A stretch of DNA of 15,790 bases from an uncultured Eubacteriales bacterium (GTDB taxonomy: Bacteria; Bacillota; Clostridia; Peptostreptococcales; Anaerovoracaceae), in assembly GCA_902803185.1 (NCBI GenBank), contig CADCOV010000209.1:1-15790 (forward strand), written 5' to 3'. Positions within the stretch are counted from its first letter, which is position 1, and every line of letters starts with the position of its first letter. The position numbers were made by a program, and so were the translations under genes. Positions 1,548-15,790 of this stretch are shown here, in pieces. The notes under the pieces are model-generated. The model did not search any database. It was not told the DNA's origin and saw nothing but the letters and a program-made list of their open reading frames with translations.

Positions 1548-2816
1548 ATGAGATCATTATCCTGTGATGTAGCGGTCGTCGGCGCCGGCCCGGCGGGCCT
1601 GGCAGCAGCAGTATCCGCGATGGAAACAGGGGCGAAGAACGTGCTGCTGATCGAGAGAGACATCCATCCCGGCGGGATCCTGCAGCAGTGCATCCATCCG
1701 GGCTTCGGCCTGCGCTATTTCGGCGAGGAACTGACCGGCCCGGAGTACGCGGAACGCTTTGCGGACCGCGCGAAGGAGCTGGGCGTACAGGTCCTGCTGG
1801 ATACCACTGCGCTGGAGATCCGGGACCACCTGCTGGTGTGCACCAGCACTGCCGGGCTCATCCACATCGAGTACCGCGCCCTGGTGCTGGCGATGGGCTG
1901 CCGGGAGAGGACCCGGGCGAATCTGGAGATCCCGGGAAGCCGCCCGTCGGGGATCTATACCGCAGGCACTGCCCAGAAGCTGATCAATATCTACGGCGAC
2001 AAGGTTGGCAGAGAGGTCGTGATCCTCGGAAGCGGGGACATCGGCATGATCATGGCGCGCCGGCTCACCCTGGAGGGTGCCCACGTCAAGGCGGTCGTGG
2101 AGATCATGCCGTTCCTGGCGGGACTGACCAGGAACAAGGTACAGTGCCTGGATGATTTCGACATCCCGCTGCTGCTGTCCCACACCGTGGTGGATATCAA
2201 CGGCATCGACCGGGTGGAGAGCGTGACCATCGCGCCGGTGGACGAGAAGAAACAGCCGATCATGGAGAAGGCGGAGGTCGTGACCTGCGATACGCTGCTG
2301 CTCTCCGTCGGCCTGATCCCGGAGAACGAGCTGAGCCGCACCGGCGGCGTCACCCTGTCCGGCATCACCAAGGGCGCGATCGTCAACCAGTATCGCCAGA
2401 CGGAGATGCCGTCCGTGGTCGCCTGCGGCAACGTGCTGCACGTCAACGACCTGGTTGATCACGTCAGCATGGAGAGCGAGGCCGCGGGACGGTACGCCGC
2501 TCTGTACGCCGCCGGCAGGCTGCCGGCCGAGACGGAGATCGAGACGGTCCCGTGCGAGGGCGTCCGCTACGTCTGCCCGCAGAGGATCGTGCCGGACGGC
2601 AGCGAGGACATCACGCTGTACTTCAGGACGGTACTGCCGGGAAGAGATTCGGTTTTGACCGTCAAAGACGGGGCGGACGGCCGCGTCCTGGCGGAGAGAA
2701 GGGTCCAGAGGACCAGTCCGGGTACCATGGAGACCCTGGTGATCCCGGCTGAGCTGGTGAAGGGGATCCGGGGGCCGGTGGAGGTCACCGCATCCCATGG
2801 GGAGGTGTTGGTATGA
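1548..2816 (+). CDS. NAD(P)/FAD-dependent oxidoreductase of the GlpA-partner type
   Basis: A 422-residue two-dinucleotide-binding-domain flavoprotein. The FAD motif is VGAGPAG at 11-17, followed by an acidic strand end (IERD, 35-38). A second Rossmann motif, GSGDIG, at 161-166 binds the nicotinamide nucleotide. The conserved VVACGNVLHVNDLVDHV region (290-306) resembles the C-terminal FAD-binding motif of this superfamily. There is no redox CxxC in the thioredoxin-reductase position. In clostridia and Thermotoga such proteins sit beside a GlpA-like dehydrogenase and a DUF1667 protein, as here, and probably pass electrons between the flavoprotein and NAD(P). It is cytoplasmic, with no signal or membrane segment. 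AGGGAGG lies 9 bases before the ATG. It overlaps the next gene by ATGA, indicating translational coupling. Family sure; exact acceptor and substrate not known. Confidence 0.88.
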   Translation: MRSLSCDVAVVGAGPAGLAAAVSAMETGAKNVLLIERDIHPGGILQQCIHPGFGLRYFGEELTGPEYAERFADRAKELGVQVLLDTTALEIRDHLLVCTSTAGLIHIEYRALVLAMGCRERTRANLEIPGSRPSGIYTAGTAQKLINIYGDKVGREVVILGSGDIGMIMARRLTLEGAHVKAVVEIMPFLAGLTRNKVQCLDDFDIPLLLSHTVVDINGIDRVESVTIAPVDEKKQPIMEKAEVVTCDTLLLSVGLIPENELSRTGGVTLSGITKGAIVNQYRQTEMPSVVACGNVLHVNDLVDHVSMESEAAGRYAALYAAGRLPAETEIETVPCEGVRYVCPQRIVPDGSEDITLYFRTVLPGRDSVLTVKDGADGRVLAERRVQRTSPGTMETLVIPAELVKGIRGPVEVTASHGEVLV

Positions 2817-3181
2817 CGAAGACGCTTGTTTGCACGGTGTGCCCGAACGGCTGCGAGATCACGGTGACCTATACGTCGCGGGAGGACGCGGTGGTCGAGG
2901 GCAACCGGTGCAAGAGAGGGATCGCGTACTCCCTCGATGAGTGCTTCGACCCGAAGAGAGTATTCACGTCGTCCGTCCGGATCGAAGACGGCTTCCGCCG
3001 GATGCTGCCGGTGAGGACGGCAGCGCCGATCCCGAAGGCGGACCTGATGGACGGAGCGGCAGAGACCAAAGCGATCACCGTGATGGCGCCGGTGCACTGC
3101 GGAGACGTCATCGAGAAGGACTTCCTGGGGACCGGGACGGACCTGGTGGCTTCCATGACGATCGAAGAGGAGGTGCGCTGA
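2813..3181 (+). CDS. DUF1667-type four-cysteine redox protein
   Basis: A 122-residue protein whose N-terminus carries CxxCPxGC followed by GNxCxRG; cysteines are C7, C10, C14 and C33. The pattern resembles the [4Fe-4S]-binding N-terminal segment of molybdopterin oxidoreductases, so an iron-sulfur cluster is likely (inference). DUF1667 proteins are found next to GlpA-like dehydrogenase and FAD/NAD oxidoreductase genes and are thought to belong to the same electron-transfer complex. GGAGG (2801-2805) lies 7 bases before the ATG. The gene overlaps its upstream neighbour by 4 bases and its downstream neighbour by 1 base (TGATG), so the three products are probably made in fixed ratio. The C-terminal half (about 65-122) has a VMAPVHCGDVIEKDFLGTG segment seen in the family. 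Role in detail unknown. Confidence 0.85.
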   Translation: MTKTLVCTVCPNGCEITVTYTSREDAVVEGNRCKRGIAYSLDECFDPKRVFTSSVRIEDGFRRMLPVRTAAPIPKADLMDGAAETKAITVMAPVHCGDVIEKDFLGTGTDLVASMTIEEEVR

Positions 3182-4620
3182 TGTACCAAACTGATGTACT
3201 GATCATCGGCGCGGGCGCCGTCGGCGTGGCGCTCGCCCGGGAATTCTCCAAATACAAGGTGGACGTTCTGGTCTGCGACAAGAACGACGACGTGGGCGGC
3301 GAGGCCTCCAAGTCGAACAGCGGCCTGACCTCCACGAGCGCCACCATGACGCCGGGCACGCTGGAGTGCCGGCTCAGAACGATCTCCCACAGCATGATCG
3401 ACGTGCTGTGCCGGGAGCTGGACGTGCCGATCAGCCACTGCGGCAGCATCGCGCCGGTCGTCTATCCGGAGCAGCTCGAGGTCGTGCCGAACCTCCTGGA
3501 AAAGGCTTTCCAGAACGGCGTCTACGACTACGAGTTCCTGCCGAAGGAAGAGGTCCTGGCGATGGAACCGGTCCTGAACCCGGACATCCTGGGCGGCATC
3601 TACAGCCCGCGGGACTCCCAGATCAACCAGTTTCTGATGGTGGTCGCCCAGGCGGAGAACGCTGCGGAGAACGGCGTGGACTTCCTGCTGGACTGCAAGG
3701 TCACCGGCATGGACGTGGCGGGCGGCAGGATCGAGACGGTCCACACCACCCGGGGCGACATCAAGGCGAAATGGATCATCAACGCGGCGGGACTGCACTG
3801 CGACGACATCGCCAAAATGGTGGAGGAATGCGATTTTTCCGTACACCCTCGGAAGGGCGAATTCTACGTCCTGAGCCACGAGACGCCGGTCAAGGTCTCC
3901 CACATCATCTCCTCGATCCCGAGCGCCAAGACCCGCGGCGTCCTGGTCATCCCGACCGTGGACGGCAACATCCTGGTGGGACCGACGGCGGACGACATCG
4001 AGGACAAGACCGACAAGAAGACGACCCGGGAGGGCATGGCGGAGATCAAGCGGAAGGCGCTGGACATGGTGCCGGGCCTGCAGTTCTCCGACACGATCAC
4101 CCAGTTCGTCGGTGTGAGGCCGGCCCGGGAACCGGAGGGCTACAACATCCTGATCTCCGAGAAGGTCAAAGGATACGTCGGCATTTCCGGCATCCGTTCC
4201 ACAGGATTGACGTCGAGCCTGGCCATCGCCAAGTACACGGTCCACGAGATGAAGGCGGCGGGTTTTGAGGCCGAGCGGAAGGTCGGCTGGATCCGTTACC
4301 GCCGGGGCATCGTCCGGTTCGCAGACAAGACCGACGAGGAGAAGGATGCTTTGATCCAGGCGGATCCGCTGTACGGCAAGATCATCTGCCGCTGCGAGCA
4401 GGTGACGGAGAGCGAGATCCGGCAGGCAATCCGCAGACCGGTGGGCGCGAAGACTCTGGACGCTGTGAAGCGCCGGGTCCGCGCCGGCATGGGCAGATGC
4501 CAGTCCGGGTTCTGCGGGCCGCAGGTGATCCGGATCCTGGCGGAGGAACTCGGCATCGACGAAAATGAGGTCCGCAAGCGGGGCGCGAAGGCGTTCATGC
4601 TGGACCATCCGGAACCGTGA
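3181..4620 (+). CDS. GlpA-like FAD-dependent glycerol-3-phosphate dehydrogenase with BFD-type [2Fe-2S] domain
   Basis: A 479-residue flavoprotein of the DAO/GlpA superfamily. The FAD motif GAGAVG is at 10-15, with the C-rich GGEASKSNSG loop at 39-48. The FVGVRP stretch (309-314) holds an arginine used for substrate binding in the family, and GYVGISGIRSTGLTSS (331-346) closes the FAD site. A C-terminal BFD-like domain (about 398-465) has four cysteines, C403, C405, C440 and C445, likely ligating a [2Fe-2S] cluster. I start at ATG 3181, which has GGAGG seven bases upstream; the longer frame (from 2941) runs through the previous gene and lacks homologous sequence. The family is annotated as anaerobic glycerol-3-phosphate dehydrogenase, feeding dihydroxyacetone phosphate into glycolysis. 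No glycerol kinase or facilitator gene is nearby, so another 2-hydroxy- or amino-substrate remains possible. Confidence 0.85.
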   Translation: MYQTDVLIIGAGAVGVALAREFSKYKVDVLVCDKNDDVGGEASKSNSGLTSTSATMTPGTLECRLRTISHSMIDVLCRELDVPISHCGSIAPVVYPEQLEVVPNLLEKAFQNGVYDYEFLPKEEVLAMEPVLNPDILGGIYSPRDSQINQFLMVVAQAENAAENGVDFLLDCKVTGMDVAGGRIETVHTTRGDIKAKWIINAAGLHCDDIAKMVEECDFSVHPRKGEFYVLSHETPVKVSHIISSIPSAKTRGVLVIPTVDGNILVGPTADDIEDKTDKKTTREGMAEIKRKALDMVPGLQFSDTITQFVGVRPAREPEGYNILISEKVKGYVGISGIRSTGLTSSLAIAKYTVHEMKAAGFEAERKVGWIRYRRGIVRFADKTDEEKDALIQADPLYGKIICRCEQVTESEIRQAIRRPVGAKTLDAVKRRVRAGMGRCQSGFCGPQVIRILAEELGIDENEVRKRGAKAFMLDHPEP

Positions 4621-4703
4621 TCCCACCGCGCCGGCGCGATGGCCGGAGCGTGAGATAAACACTTATAGCCAGTTATCAAGAAAGTACGAATGGAGGAAAA
4701 GAA

Positions 4704-5732
4704 ATGAAAAAGAGAATGTTGGCGATTCTGCTGATCCTTCTTCTCGCGATCGGACTGGTTGCCTGCGGCGGCGGCGAAAGTGAGCAGCCGAGCGGGGGAG
4801 AACAGCCGGCAGAAGAGAGCAACCGCGTCGTGATCTATCACTGCCTCTCCACCACGAGAAGTGACCCGATCATGGAAAAACTGAAGGAGCGTTTCCCGGA
4901 CTACGAGATCGTATTCGAGTATATGGGCCTGAGCGAGCTGGCGGCGAAGCTGGAGAACGAGGGCACCGACACGGATATCGACATCGCGCTGGATCTGGGC
5001 TTTGTCTACCTCGAAAAGATGATGAATGAGGATCTGTTCGCGGATACCACCAAGTATCAGGACATGATCAAGAAAATGTATGATGAGGAATTCTGGACCA
5101 ACAACAATGCCTTCCTGCCTTGGAGCCCGTACAGCGGTTCCGTCGTCGTGAACCTGGACGTCCTGGGCGAGAAGGGACTGCCGGTCCCGGCGACCTGGGA
5201 AGACCTGCTGGATCCGCAGTATAAGGACCTGATCGAGATGCCGAACCCGGCTTCTTCCGGCACCGGCTACATCTTCTACCTGATGCTCTGCCACCAGTGG
5301 GGCGATGAGAAGGCGGTCGAGTACTTCACCAAGCTGGGCGACAACGTCCTCGAGTTCACCGATTCCGGTTCCGCGCCGCTGAAGGCCCTGGCCTCCGGCG
5401 AAGTCGGCATCGCACTCTGCATGACCTATCAGGCCGCGCTGCAGATGGATGAAGGCGTCAACCTGCAGATCCTCGATCTGGAAGGCGGACATCCTTGGAC
5501 CTCCGACGGTACCGCTGTCATCAAGGGACACGACACCGCTGCGGTCGACGAAGTCATGAGCTACCTCTATTCTGAAGATATCCTGTATCTCGATGCCGAC
5601 CTGATGCCGGAGCACGGCCTCGCGAACTACGAGAGCACCATCGAGAACTGGCCGAAGGATATGAAGTACGCCGAGATGGGCGAGGATACCCTGGCCGAGA
5701 AGGAACGCCTGCTGGCCCTGTGGCCGTATTAA
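4704..5732 (+). CDS. ABC transporter solute-binding lipoprotein (AfuA/FbpA/PhnS-like class)
   Basis: A 342-residue exported lipoprotein. Residues 1-20 are a positively charged, hydrophobic signal with the lipobox LVAC, so C21 is the lipidated residue. A short linker rich in Gly/Glu/Ser (22-40) follows. The remainder is a periplasmic-binding type II fold of the ferric iron/2-aminoethylphosphonate/sugar-phosphate class, starting RVVIYHCLSTTRSDPIMEKL and containing the hinge-region motif PASSGTGYIFYLML. GGAGG lies 7 bases before the ATG. The 83-bp gap after the dehydrogenase gene has no convincing terminator, only a 12-bp GC palindrome (4627-4638), so co-transcription is likely. The ligand cannot be read from sequence; sugar phosphates and phosphonates are precedents in this class, and linkage to a GlpA-like enzyme suggests a phosphorylated C3-type compound (inference). 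Confidence 0.88.
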   Translation: MKKRMLAILLILLLAIGLVACGGGESEQPSGGEQPAEESNRVVIYHCLSTTRSDPIMEKLKERFPDYEIVFEYMGLSELAAKLENEGTDTDIDIALDLGFVYLEKMMNEDLFADTTKYQDMIKKMYDEEFWTNNNAFLPWSPYSGSVVVNLDVLGEKGLPVPATWEDLLDPQYKDLIEMPNPASSGTGYIFYLMLCHQWGDEKAVEYFTKLGDNVLEFTDSGSAPLKALASGEVGIALCMTYQAALQMDEGVNLQILDLEGGHPWTSDGTAVIKGHDTAAVDEVMSYLYSEDILYLDADLMPEHGLANYESTIENWPKDMKYAEMGEDTLAEKERLLALWPY

Positions 5733-5745
5733 ACCGAAACGCCTG

Positions 5746-5764
5746 AGCGATCGGGCGATCCGCT
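5746..5764 (+). other. Intercistronic hairpin after the binding-protein gene
   Basis: AGCGATC (5746-5752) pairs with GATCCGCT (5757-5764) with one bulged C around a GGGC loop. It lies 13 bases after the stop codon of the binding-protein gene and just before the ATPase start. There is no following T-run. A 3'-protecting hairpin that raises binding protein over ATPase/permease is a common arrangement in ABC operons (inference). Confidence 0.4.
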
Positions 5765-5771
5765 TTGATGA

Positions 5772-6587
5772 ATGGATACGGAAATGGATAACATGAATAC
5801 GAACAGCATCGAGAACACCCCTAAAATCAAATTATCCGCCAAAGGCTTATATAAGGTTTTTGGGAATCGGACTGCGTTGGATCATGTGAGCTTCGACGTC
5901 GAGGATGGAGAATTTCTCTCCATCCTCGGCCCGTCGGGCTGCGGCAAAACAACCATCCTGCGGATTTTGATCGGCCTTCTCGAACCGACGGACGGAACCG
6001 TGATCAAGGACGGCGTCGACATCACCCACTTCCCGGCTTCCAAGCGGGGCATGGGCATCGTCTTCCAGAATTACGCTCTGTTCGAAAACATGACGGTATT
6101 GGAGAACGTGGAATACGCGCTGAAATTCGACAAGCGCCTCAAGGCGAGGTCCCGGGAGATCGCGCTGGAGCAGCTTGAGATCGTCGGCCTGACCGAATCG
6201 ATCAACAAGAAGCCTCACGCCCTGTCCGGCGGACAGCAGCAGAGGGTCGCGATCGCGCGCACGCTGGCGCTCCAGCCGGATATCATCCTCTTCGATGAGC
6301 CGATGAGCGCCCTCGACGTGGCGACCCGGCTGACCCTGCGCGACCAGCTGAAGAGCATCCAGCACATGCTGGGAACGACGATGATCTACATCACCCATGA
6401 CCAGGAGGAAGCCTTCGCCATGTCGGATCACATCATCGTCATGGACAACGCGGTGATCCATCAGCACGACACGCCGCTGAACATCGTCGAACATCCGGCG
6501 GATCAGTATATCAGGGATTTCGTGATCCACAACCTGAGCGTGAAGATCAATTCACTGCTGAAGTTTTCGAGGGGGGATCAGGCATGA
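5772..6587 (+). CDS. ABC transporter ATPase, short PotA/FbpC-like
   Basis: A 271-residue importer ATPase. Walker A is GPSGCGKTT at 53-61, the Q-loop Q99, the signature LSGGQQQRVAIAR at 151-163, Walker B IILFDE at 171-176 and the switch histidine H209. Members of the PotA/FbpC class usually have about 350 residues with a C-terminal TOBE regulatory domain; here the protein stops about 20 residues after the EHPADQYIRDFV helix, so that domain is missing. The start is uncertain: ATG 5772, 5784 and 5793 are all in frame and none has a good ribosome binding site, so translation may depend on coupling to upstream translation. It overlaps the permease start by ATGA. It energises uptake of the ligand of the adjacent lipoprotein. 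Confidence 0.9.
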   Translation: MDTEMDNMNTNSIENTPKIKLSAKGLYKVFGNRTALDHVSFDVEDGEFLSILGPSGCGKTTILRILIGLLEPTDGTVIKDGVDITHFPASKRGMGIVFQNYALFENMTVLENVEYALKFDKRLKARSREIALEQLEIVGLTESINKKPHALSGGQQQRVAIARTLALQPDIILFDEPMSALDVATRLTLRDQLKSIQHMLGTTMIYITHDQEEAFAMSDHIIVMDNAVIHQHDTPLNIVEHPADQYIRDFVIHNLSVKINSLLKFSRGDQA

Positions 6588-8251
6588 GACTCAAACAGCC
6601 GGGCACGGGGACGGAGTTCGGCTTCACGACCTCCAAGCTCCTCATGCTGACGTTCTTTGCGGTATTCCTGCTGTTCCCGATCCTCAGAATGATGTCCGCC
6701 ATGACGATGGAGACCATCGTTGCAACGGTGAAGACGGCAGCCTTCCGCGCGGCCCTGAAGCGGTCCCTGGTCGTGGCGCTCACCACCATGTGCATCACGA
6801 TCACCATCGCCTCGATCTCCGCGTGGGCGGTCACCAGGACCTGCGTGCCGCTCAAGAGTTTCTTCACCATCGTGCTGACCCTGCCGATGCTGATCCCGTC
6901 CTACTCCCATGCCAGCGGCCTCGTGCTGCTGTTCGGACAGAACGGCATCCTGACGCGGAATCTGCATCTGGACCAGCTCTTCGGCGCAGCCTCGTACATC
7001 TACGGCATACCGGGCATCATCCTCGGTTCCGTGATGTTCTCTGTCCCGATCGCCTTCATCATGATCTCGGACATCATGCGCTATCAGGACTACACGCCGT
7101 ATGAGGCGGCGGAGGTCATGGGGATCCCGAAGCCGAACCGCTTCTTTTCCATCACGTATCCTTATTTCCGCAAGCCGATGATCTCCGTCATGTTCGTCGT
7201 GTTCACCGCGGTGATCACGGACTACGGCGTCCCGCACATCATCGGCGGCAAATCGATCACGGTAGCGGAGATGATGTTCCAGAAGACGGTCAAGCTCCTG
7301 GATTACGACACGGGCAGCGTCCTGGGCATGGTGCTCCTGGTCCCTGCCGTCGTCTCCTTCATCATGGACTTCGCCAACAAGGACAAGGGCAACATGGCCT
7401 TTGTCGGGAAAGCCTTCCCGCTGGTGAAGACCCCCGGAAGGGATCTCCTGACGACGGTCGCGGTCTCTTTGATCACCCTGTTCCTGATGATCCCGCTGTT
7501 CACGGCGACCTTCAACTCTTTGATCGTGAGCTATCCGAACAACCTGTCCCTGACGGCAAAGCACTATCGGACAGTGGTGTTCAAGAGCGGCTTCGTCTAT
7601 CTGAGGAACTCGCTGCTCATTGCAGTCGTGGTGTCGCTCGTCGGCATCGTACTGGTCTCGCTGGTGGCTTATCTGGCAGCGAGAATGAAATCAAAACTCT
7701 CCCGCGCGCTGCACCTGGTCTCCATGACGGCCATGGCGGTGCCGGGCATCGTACTGGGCCTGAGCTACGTGATCGTGTTCAACAAGTCGCCGATCTACAA
7801 CACGTTCTTCATCCTGTTCCTGGTCAATACGGTCCACATGTTTGCCAGCCCGTACCTGATGATGTACAACACCTTCGGCAAGCTGAACGAGAACCTGGAG
7901 AACGTGGGGATCACCCTGGGCGTCAGCCGGTTCAGGATCATCAAAGACGTCATCCTGCCGATCAGCCGCTCGACCATCCTGGACGCGATGTCCTACTTCT
8001 TCGTCCAGTGCATGAAGACCATCACGGCGGTGGCGTTCCTGTGGAGCACCTACACCAAGCCTTTGGCCATCAAGATCGACGAATACAACGCCATGATCGA
8101 GACCGGCAACGTGGCGGTGGCGACCATGCTGATCTTCGGCGTGAACCTGCTGTTCAAGACCTTCGTTTACCTGCGGCAGAGATCCATCGCCAGAGCCAAC
8201 ATCCGGGAAGGAAACGTGCCGATCCCGGAGGGCTCCAAAACCTTAGCTTAA
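6584..8251 (+). CDS. Fused double ABC permease (FbpB/PhnU2-like)
   Basis: A 555-residue integral membrane protein containing two binding-protein-dependent permease domains in one chain, about 50-265 and 330-535, with about twelve hydrophobic segments. Each half carries an EAA coupling loop that contacts the ATPase: YEAAEVMGIPKPNRF near 173-187 and LENVGITLGVSRFRI near 438-452. The fused arrangement is typical of ferric iron, putative 2-aminoethylphosphonate and AfuB-type sugar-phosphate importers. A GAGGGGGGA stretch precedes the ATG, which overlaps the ATPase stop codon. It is the last gene of the operon; a strong terminator begins 33 bases after its stop codon. Substrate specificity is not visible. 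Confidence 0.92.
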   Translation: MRLKQPGTGTEFGFTTSKLLMLTFFAVFLLFPILRMMSAMTMETIVATVKTAAFRAALKRSLVVALTTMCITITIASISAWAVTRTCVPLKSFFTIVLTLPMLIPSYSHASGLVLLFGQNGILTRNLHLDQLFGAASYIYGIPGIILGSVMFSVPIAFIMISDIMRYQDYTPYEAAEVMGIPKPNRFFSITYPYFRKPMISVMFVVFTAVITDYGVPHIIGGKSITVAEMMFQKTVKLLDYDTGSVLGMVLLVPAVVSFIMDFANKDKGNMAFVGKAFPLVKTPGRDLLTTVAVSLITLFLMIPLFTATFNSLIVSYPNNLSLTAKHYRTVVFKSGFVYLRNSLLIAVVVSLVGIVLVSLVAYLAARMKSKLSRALHLVSMTAMAVPGIVLGLSYVIVFNKSPIYNTFFILFLVNTVHMFASPYLMMYNTFGKLNENLENVGITLGVSRFRIIKDVILPISRSTILDAMSYFFVQCMKTITAVAFLWSTYTKPLAIKIDEYNAMIETGNVAVATMLIFGVNLLFKTFVYLRQRSIARANIREGNVPIPEGSKTLA

Positions 8252-10306: not shown

Positions 10307-12316
10307 ATGGAACGGCGCACCAGGGGCGCAAGCTTGCAGGGAAAAAAGAGAATACTGTTCGCCTTCGCTTTGATCGCCGTCGCGATGGTGCTGCTGCTCT
10401 TCCGGACCGCGTGGATCCAGGTCGTCAAGGCGGAGGAATACACCGACAAGGCCAAGGATCAGCAGACCAGCGACATCCCGGTGGAGGCCAAGCGGGGCGC
10501 GATCTACGACCGCAACGGCAAGGAGCTGGCCACCAGCGCCACCTGCTACACCCTCTGGGTGCGGCCGGCCCAGATCCGGGAGAACTACAAGACCGATGAG
10601 AAGCGGCAGGAGCTGGCCAGCGCCCTGGCGGTGATCCTGGAGTTCGACAGCGGGGACATCATCCACGCCTTCGAGTCCGAGAGCGTCCTGGTGCGGCTCG
10701 CCAACTACCTGGAGAAGGAGCAGGCCACCCAGATCCGCGATATGGAGGTCTACGGACTGGAGCTTTCCGAGGACACCAAGCGGTTCTACCCGATGGGCGA
10801 CTTCGCCTCGATCCTCCTGGGCAGCGTCAACGACGACGGCGTGGGCAGGAGCGGCATTGAGCTCCAGTACAACGAATACCTGAGCGGCATCGCCGGACGC
10901 GCGGTGATGGATACCGATATCAGCGGCAACCAGCTGTCCTTCGGACAGGACAAATACTACGAGGCGGAGGACGGCCTGAACGTCACACTGACCATCGACG
11001 AGGTCCTGCAGCACTACCTGCAGGACGCGATCCAGAAGGGTTACCAGGACACCGGCGCGGAGCGGGTCTTCGCGGTGGCGATGGATCCGAAGACCGCGGA
11101 GGTCCTGGCCATGGCCGTGACTCCGTCCTTCGATCCGAACGAACCGACGAAGCCGTCGGACGCGGCGGAACTGGAGGTCTTCTCCGAACTCTCCCTGGAG
11201 GAACAGAGCGCCTACCTCAGCCGGATGTGGAGGAACCCGCTCATCAGCGACGTCTATGAGCCGGGCTCCACGATGAAGCTGATCACCTCTTCCTCGTCTT
11301 TGGAGGAGGGGATCGTCACCCCGCAGACCGGCTTCTACTGCTCCGGCGTCTACGAGCTCTACGGCGTGGAGATGTACGACGCGGAGCACCACGTCCACGG
11401 CCAGGAGAGCCTGATCCAGGCGGTGGGCAACTCCTGCAACCCGGTCCACATCCAGCTGGCGCTGATGCTGGGGGCGGAGCGGTTCCTGAGCTACATCGAA
11501 AAATACGGCCTGACGGAGCCGACGGGCATCGACCTGCCGGGTGAATCCGGTTCCCTGGTGGGCAACCTGGACACCATCGGCCCGGTCGAGTTGGCCAACA
11601 TGGGCTTCGGCCAGGGCCTTGCCATCACGCCGCTCCAGCTGGCGACCGCGGTCTGCGCCATCGCCAACGACGGCGTCCTGATGAAGCCGCACTGCGTGTC
11701 CGCTTTGACGGACAAGGACGGCAACGCGGTGGTGGAATACAAGCCTGAGGTCGTCCGCAAGGTCATCTCCCACGACACCGCTGCGGAGATGATGGACATC
11801 ATGTACCAGCAGGTGGAGAACTACGGCGGCCGGAAAGCCCAGATCGAGGGCTACAAGATCGGCGGCAAGACCGGCACCTCCAGCAAGGTGGGCGACGACG
11901 GCACCTACGGGGACCAGACGGATACCTCCTTCATCGCGGTGGCGCCGATCGACGACCCGCAGATCGTGGTCCTGGTCATCTGCAGTTCCCCGCAGACCAC
12001 CTATTACGCGGACCTGACCGCGATCCCGATCGCCAGGGACTTCCTCGTCAAAGCCCTGCCGTACATGGGACTCGCCCCGGCGGACACGGGCGAGGGAAGC
12101 GACGAGGACTACGCCTACGTTCCGGACGTGACGGGCTATTCCTACCAGGACGCGGCGGCGATCCTCGCGGAATACGGCCTGAAGTACGAGGTGACGCCGG
12201 AACTGACGTCGGATGAGAAGAAGGACAAGTCCTTCACCTTCGAGGTCGTCGACCAGTACCCGAAGGCGGGGTCGAAGATCGACAAGGACGAAAAGGTCTA
12301 TCTCTACCGGGAGTAG
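10307..12316 (+). CDS. Class B penicillin-binding protein with one PASTA domain (FtsI/PbpB/SpoVD-like)
   Basis: A 669-residue division transpeptidase. It has a cytoplasmic basic tail, one membrane anchor (about 14-34), a PBP dimerisation domain (about 58-205, with the RGAIYDRNG motif at 63-71), a transpeptidase domain (about 250-585) and a single PASTA domain (about 604-667) after a short acidic linker. Active-site motifs are complete: STMK with nucleophile S321 and K324, SCN at 376-378, and KTG at 521-523. It cross-links septal peptidoglycan with an FtsW-type partner. AAAGGAG (10295-10301) precedes ATG 10307. In endospore formers this position can hold pbpB or spoVD; with only one such gene visible I do not choose between them. 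Confidence 0.93.
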   Translation: MERRTRGASLQGKKRILFAFALIAVAMVLLLFRTAWIQVVKAEEYTDKAKDQQTSDIPVEAKRGAIYDRNGKELATSATCYTLWVRPAQIRENYKTDEKRQELASALAVILEFDSGDIIHAFESESVLVRLANYLEKEQATQIRDMEVYGLELSEDTKRFYPMGDFASILLGSVNDDGVGRSGIELQYNEYLSGIAGRAVMDTDISGNQLSFGQDKYYEAEDGLNVTLTIDEVLQHYLQDAIQKGYQDTGAERVFAVAMDPKTAEVLAMAVTPSFDPNEPTKPSDAAELEVFSELSLEEQSAYLSRMWRNPLISDVYEPGSTMKLITSSSSLEEGIVTPQTGFYCSGVYELYGVEMYDAEHHVHGQESLIQAVGNSCNPVHIQLALMLGAERFLSYIEKYGLTEPTGIDLPGESGSLVGNLDTIGPVELANMGFGQGLAITPLQLATAVCAIANDGVLMKPHCVSALTDKDGNAVVEYKPEVVRKVISHDTAAEMMDIMYQQVENYGGRKAQIEGYKIGGKTGTSSKVGDDGTYGDQTDTSFIAVAPIDDPQIVVLVICSSPQTTYYADLTAIPIARDFLVKALPYMGLAPADTGEGSDEDYAYVPDVTGYSYQDAAAILAEYGLKYEVTPELTSDEKKDKSFTFEVVDQYPKAGSKIDKDEKVYLYRE

Positions 12317-12327
12317 GGATCAGACGG

Positions 12328-12849
12328 ATGAGAGTTGGTATGATCATGGAACGAGATATGTGCAAGACGGTGGCGGTCGCCGGGGGACCGGAGCGGGCTG
12401 CCGCCGGTGAGATGATCAAAACGATCCTCCGCCGGCACACCGGGGAGCCGCAGCCTGAGATCAGGGTGCTGGAGGCGGACGTGCCTCCGGCCGGGATGGA
12501 CGAGAGCTGCGTCCTCGTGGTGAACGCCGACGAGGAGTCGCTGTCCGCTTTGGACGGGCAGGCCCATCCTTACCGGATCCTCAGGGCGGGCAAAGCCGCA
12601 GACGCGGATTTCCGCGTCTCCGAGATCGAGGAGCTGGGCAGCATGGGCATCCGCTTCAATCTGACCACGGGCGAGGGCACGACGCCGCTGCGCCTGCTGG
12701 TCGAGGGAGAGAGCAAGGCGGTGGACGCGGCGATCGCCGCAGCGGCCGCCGCGGCGGCGGGGATCACCTGGGAGGAGATCATCGCCGGGCTTTCCCATGC
12801 GGAACATCAGGAGACGCCGGCAAAGCGGCCGGCGGGCTCGAATCAATAA
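12328..12849 (+). CDS. Truncated, non-catalytic MurF-like protein
   Basis: A 173-residue protein at the usual murE/murF site. Residues 15-34 align without gaps with the Mur ligase P-loop (IAITG-SxGKTTT-KEM-IL), but the nucleotide-binding residues are gone: E22 for Gly, R23 for Lys, A24 for Thr. Residues 62-155 match the second half of the MurF central domain: VLVVNADEES like the NADD strand, then ADADFRVSEIEELGSMGIRF, then a substituted G(R/K)HN motif (GESK, 127-130), an alanine-rich helix and GITWEEIIAGL. Between these parts, roughly 60 residues are missing compared with E. coli MurF as I recall it. The N-terminal UDP-binding and C-terminal domains are absent. The frame is intact, with AGGGA eight bases before ATG 12328, though ATG 12340, 12346 or 12358 could also serve. 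It cannot be an active ligase. It may be structural, regulatory, or decaying. Confidence 0.75.
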   Translation: MRVGMIMERDMCKTVAVAGGPERAAAGEMIKTILRRHTGEPQPEIRVLEADVPPAGMDESCVLVVNADEESLSALDGQAHPYRILRAGKAADADFRVSEIEELGSMGIRFNLTTGEGTTPLRLLVEGESKAVDAAIAAAAAAAAGITWEEIIAGLSHAEHQETPAKRPAGSNQ

Positions 12850-12873
12850 AGGCAATTTTGTGAGGGTAATGGT

Positions 12874-13830
12874 ATGAGCGTTTCCATCTGGTTCATCATC
12901 GCGTTCGCGGTCTCCGCAGTCCTGACGGGGGTCGAGATCCCGATGCTGAAAAAACATCAGTTCAAGCAGTATATCCGCGAGGAGGGACCGCAGTCCCACC
13001 AGAAGAAGTCCGGCACCCCGACCATGGGCGGCATCGCGATCATCATCGCCATGGTGCTGGTCGGGCTCATCGGCGGCGGCTTCGGCGGGAAGACGGTTTT
13101 GATGGTCGTCATGACGCTTTTGTTCGGCGCCATCGGTTTCCTCGACGACTACATCAAAGTCGCTCAGAAGCACAATCTGGGCCTCAGAGCATGGCAGAAG
13201 CTGGTCCTCCAGATCCTCTTCGCCGTGGTCCTGGCCCTCTACATCTCCAAGGGGACGGATGAGGGGACCCTGGTCTACATCCCGTTCTACGGCGACTACC
13301 TGGATTTCGGCATCCTGTACGTGCCGTTCGTGGCCTTCGTCATGGTGGCGATGGCCAACAGCGTCAACCTGTCCGACGGCCTGGACGGCCTCTGCGCAGG
13401 CTCCACCGCCATCGTGTCGGTCTTCTTCGCCATCCTGGGACTGAAGGCCGGCGAGGCCGAGGCGGGCGTCTACGCGGCGGTGATCTCGGGCAGCTGCCTG
13501 GGCTTCCTGCTCTTCAACCGGCACCCGGCCAAGCTCTTCATGGGCGACACCGGCTCCATGGCCCTGGGCGGCGCCCTGGCCTCCGCGGCCATCGTCATGC
13601 GGATGGAGTTCATGCTGGTGATCGCGGGCCTGATCTACGTGCTGGAGGCGCTCTCCGTCATCATCCAGGTCCTGTACTTCAAGAAAACCGGCGGCAAGCG
13701 CTTCTTCAAGATGGCGCCGCTGCATCATCATTTCGAGCTGTGCGGCATGAAAGAGACCAGCGTGGTCCTCATGTTCTGGGCCTTCGCCGCGGTCTGCTGC
13801 CTGCTCGCCTATCTGATCTATATGATTTAG
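12874..13830 (+). CDS. mraY: Phospho-MurNAc-pentapeptide transferase MraY
   Basis: A 318-residue polytopic membrane enzyme that transfers phospho-MurNAc-pentapeptide to undecaprenyl phosphate, making lipid I. Family motifs are present: the substrate-side SHQKKSGTPTMGG (41-53), the catalytic FLDDYIK with D91 and D92, NSVNLSDGLDGL (162-172), FMGDTGSMALGG with the third aspartate D225, and APLHHHFE (281-288) with the histidine triplet. About ten hydrophobic segments fit the known topology. GAGGG lies nine bases before ATG 12874. It begins 24 bases after the MurF-like gene and is followed after 12 bases by murD, the usual Firmicutes order. Confidence 0.97.
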   Translation: MSVSIWFIIAFAVSAVLTGVEIPMLKKHQFKQYIREEGPQSHQKKSGTPTMGGIAIIIAMVLVGLIGGGFGGKTVLMVVMTLLFGAIGFLDDYIKVAQKHNLGLRAWQKLVLQILFAVVLALYISKGTDEGTLVYIPFYGDYLDFGILYVPFVAFVMVAMANSVNLSDGLDGLCAGSTAIVSVFFAILGLKAGEAEAGVYAAVISGSCLGFLLFNRHPAKLFMGDTGSMALGGALASAAIVMRMEFMLVIAGLIYVLEALSVIIQVLYFKKTGGKRFFKMAPLHHHFELCGMKETSVVLMFWAFAAVCCLLAYLIYMI

Positions 13831-13842
13831 CGAGGTGATATC

Positions 13843-15216
13843 ATGCGTACGAATCCTGACAACATCAAAGGCAACCGCATCCTCATCGTCGGCCTCGGAC
13901 GCTCCGGCATCGCCGCGGTCCACGCCATGCTGGACCTCGGCGCGGTGGTCTCCGTCCAGGACGACCGGGAGCGGGCGAGCTTTGATCCGAACTTCATCAC
14001 CTATCTCGAGAACAAGAAAGTGACCTGCTGGTTCCACTGCCTGCCGGAGGACATGGGCGCTTACGACATGGTCATCCTGAGCCCGGGCGTGAACCCGGAG
14101 CTGCCATTCATCCAGGAGGCCAAAGCCAGGGGCGCGGAGATCACCGGCGAGCTGGAGATCGCCTTCCGGATCAGCCGGGGCGAGTTCATCGCCATCACCG
14201 GCACCAACGGCAAGACCACGACCACGACCCTCGTGGGCGAGATCTTCAAGGAATCCGGCCGCACCACCCACGTGGTGGGCAACATCGGCACCGCGGTCAT
14301 CGGCGCATCGGAGACGGCGGACGAGGACGACTGGCTGGTCACGGAGTGCAGCAGCTTCCAGCTGGAGACGACCCGGTACTTCAACCCGCACGTCTCCGCG
14401 ATCCTGAACCTGACGCCGGACCACCTGAACCGGCACCACACCATGGAGGCCTACGGCGCGGCCAAGGCGAAGATCTTCGCCAACCAGACCGGAGAGGACT
14501 TCCTGGTCATCAATTACGACGACAAGCTCTGCTACGGCCTGGCGGAAGGGGCGAAGTGCAACGTCATCCCGTTCAGCCGCAAAGAAGAGCTGGAGCGGGG
14601 CGCCTTCCTGAAGGACGGCCGCATCGTGATCCGTGAGAAGGGCGTGATCTACGACATCTGCGATCCGAAGGACCTCAAGATCATCGGCGACCACAACGTG
14701 GAGAACGTGCTGGCGGCCTCCGCCATCGCCTTCTACGCGGGGATCGCGCCTGAGGTCATCACCCGGGCGGTCCTGGACTTCGGCGGCGTGGAGCACCGCA
14801 TCGAGTACTGCGGCACCGTGGACGGCATCAAATACTACAACGACTCCAAGGGCACCAACATCGACGCGGCGGTGACCGCGCTCAGGGCGATCCGCGAGAA
14901 CATCATCCTGATCGCCGGCGGCGACGCCAAGGGACAGGTCTTCGACGAGTTCATCGAGGCCTTCCAGGGCAGCGTGAAGAAGATGCTGGTCCTGGGCAGG
15001 GACGGCCACTTCATCACCGAGGCGGCGGACCGCTGCGGTTTCAGCGACTACATCGTCTGCAAGGACCTCCCGGACTGCGTGAAGCGGGCGGCGGCCATCG
15101 CCGAGCCGGGCGACACGGTCCTGCTTTCCCCGGCCTGCGCGAGCTGGGATATGTACGACAACTACGAGCAGAGGGGCGAGCATTTCAAGGAGTGCGTCCG
15201 CCTGCTCGAAGAGTGA
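13843..15216 (+). CDS. murD: UDP-N-acetylmuramoyl-L-alanine--D-glutamate ligase MurD
   Basis: A 457-residue, complete three-domain Mur ligase adding D-glutamate to UDP-MurNAc-L-alanine in the cytoplasm. N-terminal Rossmann-like UDP domain with VGLGRSGIAA (16-25); central ATPase domain with P-loop TGTNGKTTTTTL (119-130), GNIGTAV (147-152) and AAKAKIF, where K208 is the expected carbamylated lysine; GDHNVENVLAA (282-292); C-terminal domain with the NDSKGTN motif (333-339) and LLSPACASWDMYDN (427-440). The intact P-loop and HN motif contrast directly with the degenerate versions in the MurF-like gene two genes upstream. GAGGTGAT precedes ATG 13843. Confidence 0.97.
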   Translation: MRTNPDNIKGNRILIVGLGRSGIAAVHAMLDLGAVVSVQDDRERASFDPNFITYLENKKVTCWFHCLPEDMGAYDMVILSPGVNPELPFIQEAKARGAEITGELEIAFRISRGEFIAITGTNGKTTTTTLVGEIFKESGRTTHVVGNIGTAVIGASETADEDDWLVTECSSFQLETTRYFNPHVSAILNLTPDHLNRHHTMEAYGAAKAKIFANQTGEDFLVINYDDKLCYGLAEGAKCNVIPFSRKEELERGAFLKDGRIVIREKGVIYDICDPKDLKIIGDHNVENVLAASAIAFYAGIAPEVITRAVLDFGGVEHRIEYCGTVDGIKYYNDSKGTNIDAAVTALRAIRENIILIAGGDAKGQVFDEFIEAFQGSVKKMLVLGRDGHFITEAADRCGFSDYIVCKDLPDCVKRAAAIAEPGDTVLLSPACASWDMYDNYEQRGEHFKECVRLLEE

Positions 15217-15225
15217 GGAGAGAGC

Positions 15226-15790
15226 ATGGCAAAGAGCGCGAAGCGCATCAGAAGCAAATGGGGGCACATCGACTTCCCCCTCCTCATACTGGTAACGATC
15301 CTGGCGATCTTCGGCGTGGTCATGGTGTTCAGCGCCAGCTATTACTATTCTATCAATTCCACCGGCACGCCCTATTCCTATCTTTGGAAGCAGGGCGCCT
15401 TTGCTGTCAGCGGCTTCGTGATCATGCTGGTCTTGTCCGTCTTTGACTACCACGTCATGCGGCATGTGGCCGTCCTCATCGCCGCAGTGGAGCTGGTCCT
15501 GCTGGTCCTGGTCTTCACGCCGCTGGGCGTCACGGTCAACGAAGCGACCCGGTGGATCAGGGTTCCGGGCATCGGCCTGACCATCATGCCGGGCGAATTG
15601 GCGAAGCCTGCGATCATCATCCTGGCGGCCAGCTACTTCTCGGCGAGGATGAAACGGGCGCAGAGCCTTTCCGGGCTGCTGCCGATCGTCGTCTATACGG
15701 TGGTCTGCTGCGTCCTCATCGTCAAGCAGCCGAACCTGTCGACGGCGATCACGGTGTTCCTCATCGCCGTGGGCCTCGCCTTCGTGGCGG
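15226..15790 (+). CDS. ftsW: FtsW/SpoVE-family SEDS glycosyltransferase (partial, runs off the right edge)
   Basis: The first 188 codons of a SEDS-family polytopic protein, the septal peptidoglycan glycosyltransferase that pairs with the class B PBP. A basic N-terminus is followed by a first membrane helix and FSASYYYSI. The conserved TRWIR segment and the loop normally written QPSE(L/F)xK appear here as MPGELAK; KQPNLSTAI corresponds to the usual QPDLGT segment. GAGGAGA (15216-15222) precedes ATG 15226, which begins 9 bases after murD. The catalytic aspartate region is beyond the window. FtsW versus SpoVE cannot be decided from this part; position in the cluster favours FtsW. Confidence 0.9.
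   Translation, partial: MAKSAKRIRSKWGHIDFPLLILVTILAIFGVVMVFSASYYYSINSTGTPYSYLWKQGAFAVSGFVIMLVLSVFDYHVMRHVAVLIAAVELVLLVLVFTPLGVTVNEATRWIRVPGIGLTIMPGELAKPAIIILAASYFSARMKRAQSLSGLLPIVVYTVVCCVLIVKQPNLSTAITVFLIAVGLAFVA

Follow-up and report, generated by a model that had tools for sequence, protein, structure and literature searches.

The P-loop and the HNxxN-type motifs of Mur ligases have catalytic roles, and MurF combines three domains (UDP-binding, ATPase and C-terminal). Among Mur-ligase relatives, the PAP11/MurE-like protein is described as a stable subunit of the plant plastid-encoded RNA polymerase (PMC9456514), and a study on Bordetella reports that a MurE-MurF protein forms a complex with MurG, a precedent for MurF as a member of physical complexes in this pathway (PMC6420597). 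The protein analyzed here (P0001) shares with the MurF of dcw clusters its slot, its ancestry and the middle-domain fold; unlike dcw MurF, it is devoid of the N- and C-terminal domains and of the EMGM, SHxE and AKxE stretches, and its P-loop and HNxxN motif are altered. PAP11 differs from it in being much longer and belonging to a transcription complex, outside any dcw cluster, and the Bordetella MurF differs in being an active enzyme fused to MurE. Our literature searches found nothing that joins a Mur ligase with the notion of a pseudoenzyme and nothing on non-orthologous displacement of a Mur ligase; the matches on catalytically inactive Mur ligases were unrelated by title and abstract opening, those listed for the name 'murF2' concerned muscle ring-finger proteins or kinetoplast MURF by title, and the microbial matches on MurF paralogues were unrelated in the matching passage.

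The window, i.e., the whole 15,790-nucleotide stretch of DNA that was analyzed, comes from a draft genome (79% complete, 304 contigs) of an uncultured Eubacteriales bacterium and includes part of a dcw cluster (Table 1). As the original prediction had it, an intact frame of 173 codons with a plausible ribosome binding site lies between pbp and mraY. It is 11 bases from the former and 24 bases from the latter, and the site (AGGGA) precedes its ATG at a distance of 8 bases. The product compares with 460-490 aa for the dcw MurFs of the genus. The mraY gene carries its own GAGGG, 7 bases 5' of its ATG.

Table 1. Coordinates of the remnant, its neighbors and the Mur ligase genes on other contigs of the same genome
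Feature	Position	Strand	Evidence or remark
Remnant gene (MurF-derived pseudoenzyme, P0001)	12328..12849	+	Open frame, MurF homology, same-length relative P0003
Residues 12-37: Mur middle domain from first strand through dead P-loop to first helix	12361..12438	+	GSVGKTTT -> GGPERAAA
Residues 43-48: probable leftover strand preceding the deleted NIGxSH motif	12454..12471	+	Alignment A2 and modelled strand; weak
Residues 57-160: MurF middle domain, second half	12496..12807	+	HNxxN -> SKxxD; homology searches, pLDDT
Tail (residues 161-173) and stop, in place of C-terminal domain	12808..12849	+	Poorly conserved; pLDDT <50
Penicillin-binding protein with PASTA domain (pbp), upstream neighbor	10307..12316	+	Pfam
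mraY, downstream neighbor	12874..13830	+	Pfam
murD, intact	13843..15216	+	TIGR01087, 435 bits
murE	C223		TIGR01085, 455 bits
murC	C133		TIGR01082, 501 bits
folC, cut by contig end	C82		TIGR01499, 256 bits
MurF2, 520-aa ligase	C93 (L027) 12517-14079	-	
ddl, directly downstream of MurF2	C93 (L027) 11289-12506	-	

The likeness of P0001 to MurF is beyond chance in its second half, which matches the MurF of congener G005 with E 4.7e-29, and NCBIfam models for MurE-MurF and MurF cover residues 29-162 (PRK11929, 1.2e-9; TIGR01143 murF, 1.3e-7; PRK10773, 7.5e-6), in agreement with the predicted retention of the second half of the MurF central domain. The proposed check by profile and structure came out divided: PF08245, the Pfam model of the Mur ligase middle domain, gave no match to P0001 even at E<=1, whereas the NCBIfam MurF models and the predicted fold did match. 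The TIGR01143 cut-off of 288.6 bits is not reached by P0001 (30.9) or by its relative from a second species, P0003 (35.6). MurF sequences from the PDB give matches inside residues 37-159 with E of about 2e-4 to 8e-4, and the sole better-scoring PDB entry (1.3e-5) is 8frf_A, a 217-aa chain named RBL7_C2_3. The predicted structure, with pLDDT of 85-92 for residues 81-150 and below 50 in the tail, resembles Mur ligases across residues ~10-168. Its fold matches include the plastid polymerase chains 9epc_Q, 8r6s_Q and 8xzv_J, which we take to be the PAP11/MurE-like subunit. Thus, both sequence and structure assign P0001 to the Mur ligase middle domain, and it consists of parts of this domain only, whereas all three MurF domains are recognized by Pfam in the G005 protein.

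In the first half, residues 12-37 (CKTVAVAGGPERAAAGEMIKTILRRH) pair gaplessly with KxxAVTGSVGKTTTRDMI of the congeners, with the catalytic Gly replaced by Glu22, the Lys by Arg23 and the Thr stretch by Ala24-26, exactly the substitutions anticipated from the sequence; the P-loop signature of MurF ligases, GxxGK(T/S)T, is accordingly absent from P0001 (GGPERAAA) and P0003 (GGPEQAAA). Taken alone, this match is modest, given that 12 of 300 shuffles of P0001 residues 1-56 score equally against a profile of 15 MurFs; for the P-loop region of P0003, scored with the same profile, 1 of 300 shuffles does so. In both proteins, the profile scores best precisely at the P-loop, and this placement is colinear with the remainder of the sequence. 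MAFFT put the segment elsewhere in one alignment and on the P-loop in another (A2), and the placement is based on the profile scan, alignment A2 and the model, itself built with A2. The suspicion that the likeness arises by chance from alanine-rich composition was dismissed on the strength of the G005 match, the P-loop position and the existence of two relatives of the same length, P0002 and P0003.

When P0001 is aligned with the 467-aa G005 MurF, residues 12-37 correspond to 107-132, residues 43-48 probably to 187-192, and residues 57-160 to 220-323. Some 100 residues are missing at the N-terminus, with the UDP-precursor domain, and some 140 at the C-terminus; the middle domain has lost its catalytic half, in two pieces of ~50 and ~20 residues. 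The alignment thus bears out the absence of both terminal domains and the existence of an internal gap, the size of which had been underestimated: rather than ~60 residues, about 70 are lost, with the strand 43-48 probably lying between the two pieces. The 11 MurFs of the genus share 98 invariant columns. The two main retained segments contain 30 of them, the other 68 lying elsewhere; P0001 preserves 16 of these 30 and P0003 preserves 17. The 14 columns altered in P0001 belong mainly to the binding set, so that the catalytic residues are lost: they comprise the P-loop positions (T18A, S20G, V21P, G22E, K23R or Q, T24A, T26A, R27G and D28E), the HN..N positions (H129 and N133, as well as N130 in P0001 only) and two further columns (F57M and D69E). 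The kept residues are A16, V17, G19, L63, N66, L72, G107, F110, L123, G127, A131, A137, A139, G145, I152 and G154. The pattern indicates that binding residues go and fold residues (glycines, alanines and core hydrophobics) stay.

A search of 61 genomes (the own one and 60 relatives) with P0001 gave matches in 44. In the congeners, the slot between pbp and mraY holds a full-length MurF of 460-490 aa in all 11 assembled loci; in the 12th congener (G006), the contig begins within mraY and the slot is cut off. The ORF is thus the native dcw murF cut down. Accordingly, the original view that it stands in place of murE/murF is right with respect to murF and wrong with respect to murE: the genus slot contains murF alone, no murE-murF pair, and murE of this genome is located on another contig. 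The search for full-length counterparts in the genome likewise recovered murE on C223 and found no canonical full-length murF in this genome, which is 79% complete. Another truncated dcw murF was found neither in 28 loci of the family (tblastn, E<=1e-4) nor in the 70 of 80 wider loci that have a pbp match upstream of mraY (tblastn, E<=1e-5), a set that includes some of the same congeners, leaves aside the 10 loci without a pbp match and could let a very diverged remnant escape. Neither a MurE nor a MurF match is present in the pbp-mraY gap in 14 of these 70 loci. In the more distant Firmicutes loci L196, L204, L207, L213, L218, L225, L230, L235, L239 and L242, a gap of 68-250 bases separates the pbp match from mraY and contains no match to MurE or MurF. 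A scan of our genome contig collection detected no relatives of P0001 or P0003.

Five genes of the genome match the Mur middle domain, namely murC, murD, murE, folC and MurF2 (Table 1). The genome's best TIGR01143 match, which with 247 bits stays below the 288.6 cut-off, is MurF2, a membrane-type protein with the Mur middle and C-terminal domains and an intact P-loop (GSYGKTS), but without a match to PF01225, the N-terminal Mur domain. Five hydrophobic segments within residues 1-150 replace the UDP-binding domain, and the way in which the UDP-precursor is bound merits a study of its own. With the remnant, MurF2 shares the Mur middle domain, to which it adds the C-terminal domain, the intact P-loop and the hydrophobic segments. 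The D-Ala-D-Ala ligase encoded beside MurF2 passes the PRK01966.1-4 and TIGR01205 cut-offs and remains below the Van-type ones; in 11 congeners, its best ddl match shares 33-42% identity with it, G005 yielded no such match, and we infer that this ddl is foreign. Upstream of MurF2 lies an apparent alpha/beta hydrolase gene (named by eye). Contamination as the source of contig C93 was considered and dismissed on the basis of its pcrA, which shares 79% identity with the pcrA of G005 and, over 134 aa, 89% with the one in G001.

No MurF2 orthologue was found in the 12 congeners, several of which are 75-81% complete and two (G004 and G008) 99%: the best match is their own dcw MurF at 28-35% in 11 of them and another Mur ligase in G006. 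Across the order, MurF2 is present at E<=1e-60 in 48 of 393 genomes, namely this one, 26 others of the family and 21 in other families. In a tree of 44 proteins, two database proteins form a group with this MurF2 (97/96), which neighbors the g5 carriers (86/74, weak). MurF2 is therefore likely to be a replacement catalyst, as opposed to a recent duplicate, and, absent as it is from the congeners, it very probably now performs the reaction of MurF; such a takeover would explain how MurF catalysis could be lost.

The fate of dcw murF in other MurF2 carriers is consistent with such replacement. The 26 other carriers of the family yielded 25 dcw loci (G384, where mraY lies at a contig end, was left out), and in 23 of these the slot is empty, without a MurF match; the pbp stop codon and the aligned part of mraY are separated by 45-90 bases in 21 and by 274 and 336 bases in two. 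These two longer slots, L164 (G306, 274 bases) and L166 (G328, 336 bases), contain open stretches of 65 and 88 codons, respectively, without MurF likeness. The remaining loci, those of G147 and G317 (L143 and L144), combine a full dcw murF with MurF2, apparently the step that precedes loss, and the three MurF2-less controls (G016, G109 and G115) have a full murF in the slot. In a TIGR01143 search of 53 genomes, 51 of them picked by MurF2 state and including 19 of the 21 carriers from other families, only 9 exceed the cut-off, all of which have a dcw murF; the other 44, this genome included, come from three families and are MurF2 carriers (with the MurF2 of G374 only a piece at a contig end) in which no gene scores above the murF cut-off. 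Together, the empty slots and the profile search indicate that MurF2 regularly accompanies the loss of MurF. The combination of MurF2 with a pared-down MurF is found in this genome and is absent from the other carriers examined, and the 23 carriers without a detected remnant suggest that MurF2 has no general need of it.

In a database of 5.8 billion proteins, where 7995 candidates were scored and full-length MurFs fell outside the length limits of the search, only two relatives of similar length were found: P0002, a cluster of 10 member sequences (1 contig) at 99% identity, and P0003. The latter, from a second species, has 173 aa, the same start and the same dead P-loop, and is about 72-73% identical to P0001. 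A MraY protein, P0125, is 88% identical to the MraY encoded in the window (86.8% end to end); its contig and that of P0003 are both 3073 bases long and come from the same source, so that P0003 very likely occupies the same slot beside MraY. Of the 172 residues aligned between P0001 and P0003, 126 are the same, with 76% identity in residues 1-38, 48% in 39-60, 81% in 61-159 and 50% in the tail (7 of 14 in residues 160-173). The P-loop segment 12-37 is 85% identical (22 of 26), within the 81-92% of functional MurF pairs, and the retained segments (12-37 and 57-157) are 81% identical. For six functional MurF pairs, the corresponding identities (with MraY identity in parentheses) are 66 (88.8), 74 (87.8), 64 (84.8), 75 (83.0), 84 (92.9) and 63% (80.7%); the three at comparable MraY divergence (85-89%) thus give 64, 66 and 74%, against 81% for the remnant. 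The second species thus keeps the dead 173-aa form at the conservation of a working enzyme, in line with the original proposal that the frame persists after the loss of catalysis. The structural or regulatory partnership suggested there is a hypothesis.

Neutral drift fits this conservation poorly. Among 27 MraY pairs of 85-90% identity, which share genomes and hence are non-independent, 0.57-0.71 of the fourfold sites differ; in neutral simulations, 73% identity is attained only when divergence stays within about 0.2 per site, far less than this calibration indicates, and at 0.3 per site none of 1500 runs reaches 73% with either base composition. The comparison of the remnant with MraY is a proxy and no dN/dS, and the genome is GC-rich, the calibration genomes less so. 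The standard dN/dS against G005 is useless because GC3 differs (0.84 in P0001, 0.77 in G005 and 0.44 in G001) and the fourfold sites are near saturation. The differences between P0001 and P0003 have a mean BLOSUM62 score of -0.22, compared with -0.52 under neutrality (sd 0.22, d 0.15), i.e., only 1.4 sd milder. Furthermore, the remnant has GC1 of 0.69 and GC2 of 0.50, against 0.56-0.63 and 0.36-0.43 in its neighbors, and GC3 of 0.84 (0.786 in residues 1-56) against 0.87-0.94; the raised GC1 and GC2 and slightly lowered GC3 are a mark of some relaxation.

We propose the following history for the locus. MurF2 would have been acquired by transfer and would have taken over the addition of D-Ala-D-Ala, so that the native MurF was no longer tied to catalysis; its gene would then have been shortened in frame before the split of the two species. 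The product would survive as a compact pseudo-Mur domain that is maintained for its binding to other proteins and most likely would hold or tune the cytoplasmic Mur machinery (MurD, MurE, MurG and MraY) encoded around it. To this main reading, namely that the native dcw murF, freed by MurF2, was shrunken and retained as a module that binds within the precursor machinery, we assign a probability of about 0.55 on evidence from two species and one draft genome. From its conservation in sequence, the remnant probably has a new non-enzymatic job, and the best-supported candidate would be that of a binding module of the precursor machinery without catalytic activity. More tentatively, the dcw cluster of this bacterium might encode a true pseudoenzyme of the Mur ligases that was selected as a non-catalytic part of the precursor machinery after takeover by a foreign MurF2 (together with its Ddl), in which case MurF would have a second, catalysis-independent role. 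No MurF2 was found for the species of P0003 among the matches listed, where the MurF2 relatives outside the own cluster are at most 59% identical (best 120 of 7546); if the genome of P0003 is devoid of MurF2, the proposed history needs another catalyst.

The remnant could also be a decaying pseudogene that is still open by chance, in-frame deletions being steps towards clean deletion after the arrival of MurF2. The empty slot in 23 of 25 family carriers and the base composition, notably the GC3 of residues 1-56, speak for decay, and GC-rich DNA keeps frames open, with 16-58% of neutral runs stop-free at an equilibrium GC of 0.85 (0.07-27% at GC 0.62). We nevertheless hold decay to be unlikely, given that the second species has the same start, length and dead P-loop, that the retained segments are 81% identical while the linker (48%) and the tail (50%) drift, and that the divergence of up to about 0.2 compatible with 73% neutral identity is much less than that implied by a MraY at 87%. 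An outright artifact, be it an alanine-rich ORF with accidental likeness or a full murF collapsed in assembly, might be suspected in a draft of 304 contigs and from a compositionally simple alanine run, and is negligible in view of the same length of P0002 (99%) and P0003 (72%), on which grounds misassembly was rejected, and of homology at E 4.7e-29.

A role in the specific service of MurF2, as its partner or regulator and perhaps as a substitute for the part that MurF2 lacks, would suit the missing PF01225 match and the presence of both genes in this genome. Yet the remnant consists of middle-domain pieces, not of PF01225, no MurF2 was found among the listed matches for the species of P0003, and the existence of 23 carriers without a remnant makes a MurF2-specific role less likely still, so that we rate this option as rather improbable. 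Even less credible is a mere translated spacer that couples the translation of pbp and mraY: the tight gaps of 11 and 24 bases would fit, but the GAGGG ahead of mraY gives this gene a site of its own, a spacer would not preserve 81% amino-acid identity, and the slot has simply closed up in 21 other genomes, with two more in which it is longer yet empty.

If retention of the old MurF as a binding module is the correct reading, the locus would be a case in which nature has separated the functions of an essential enzyme, with catalysis moved to a foreign protein; whatever selection still maintains would mark the part of MurF that does something besides catalysis, and the old question of a working Mur ligase complex would become testable. 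Moreover, a single family displays all four stages of a path along which an essential gene is replaced step by step: the native gene alone, both genes, a pared-down native gene and no native gene.

Ahead of the dcw cluster, the region 1548-8251 (+) of the window contains, as named by eye, apparent FAD-dependent oxidoreductase genes and an apparent substrate-binding/ATPase/permease ABC set. Antisense to the remnant, mraY and murD runs a 1053-aa open frame (window 12304-15465, -), most likely a by-product of high GC3.
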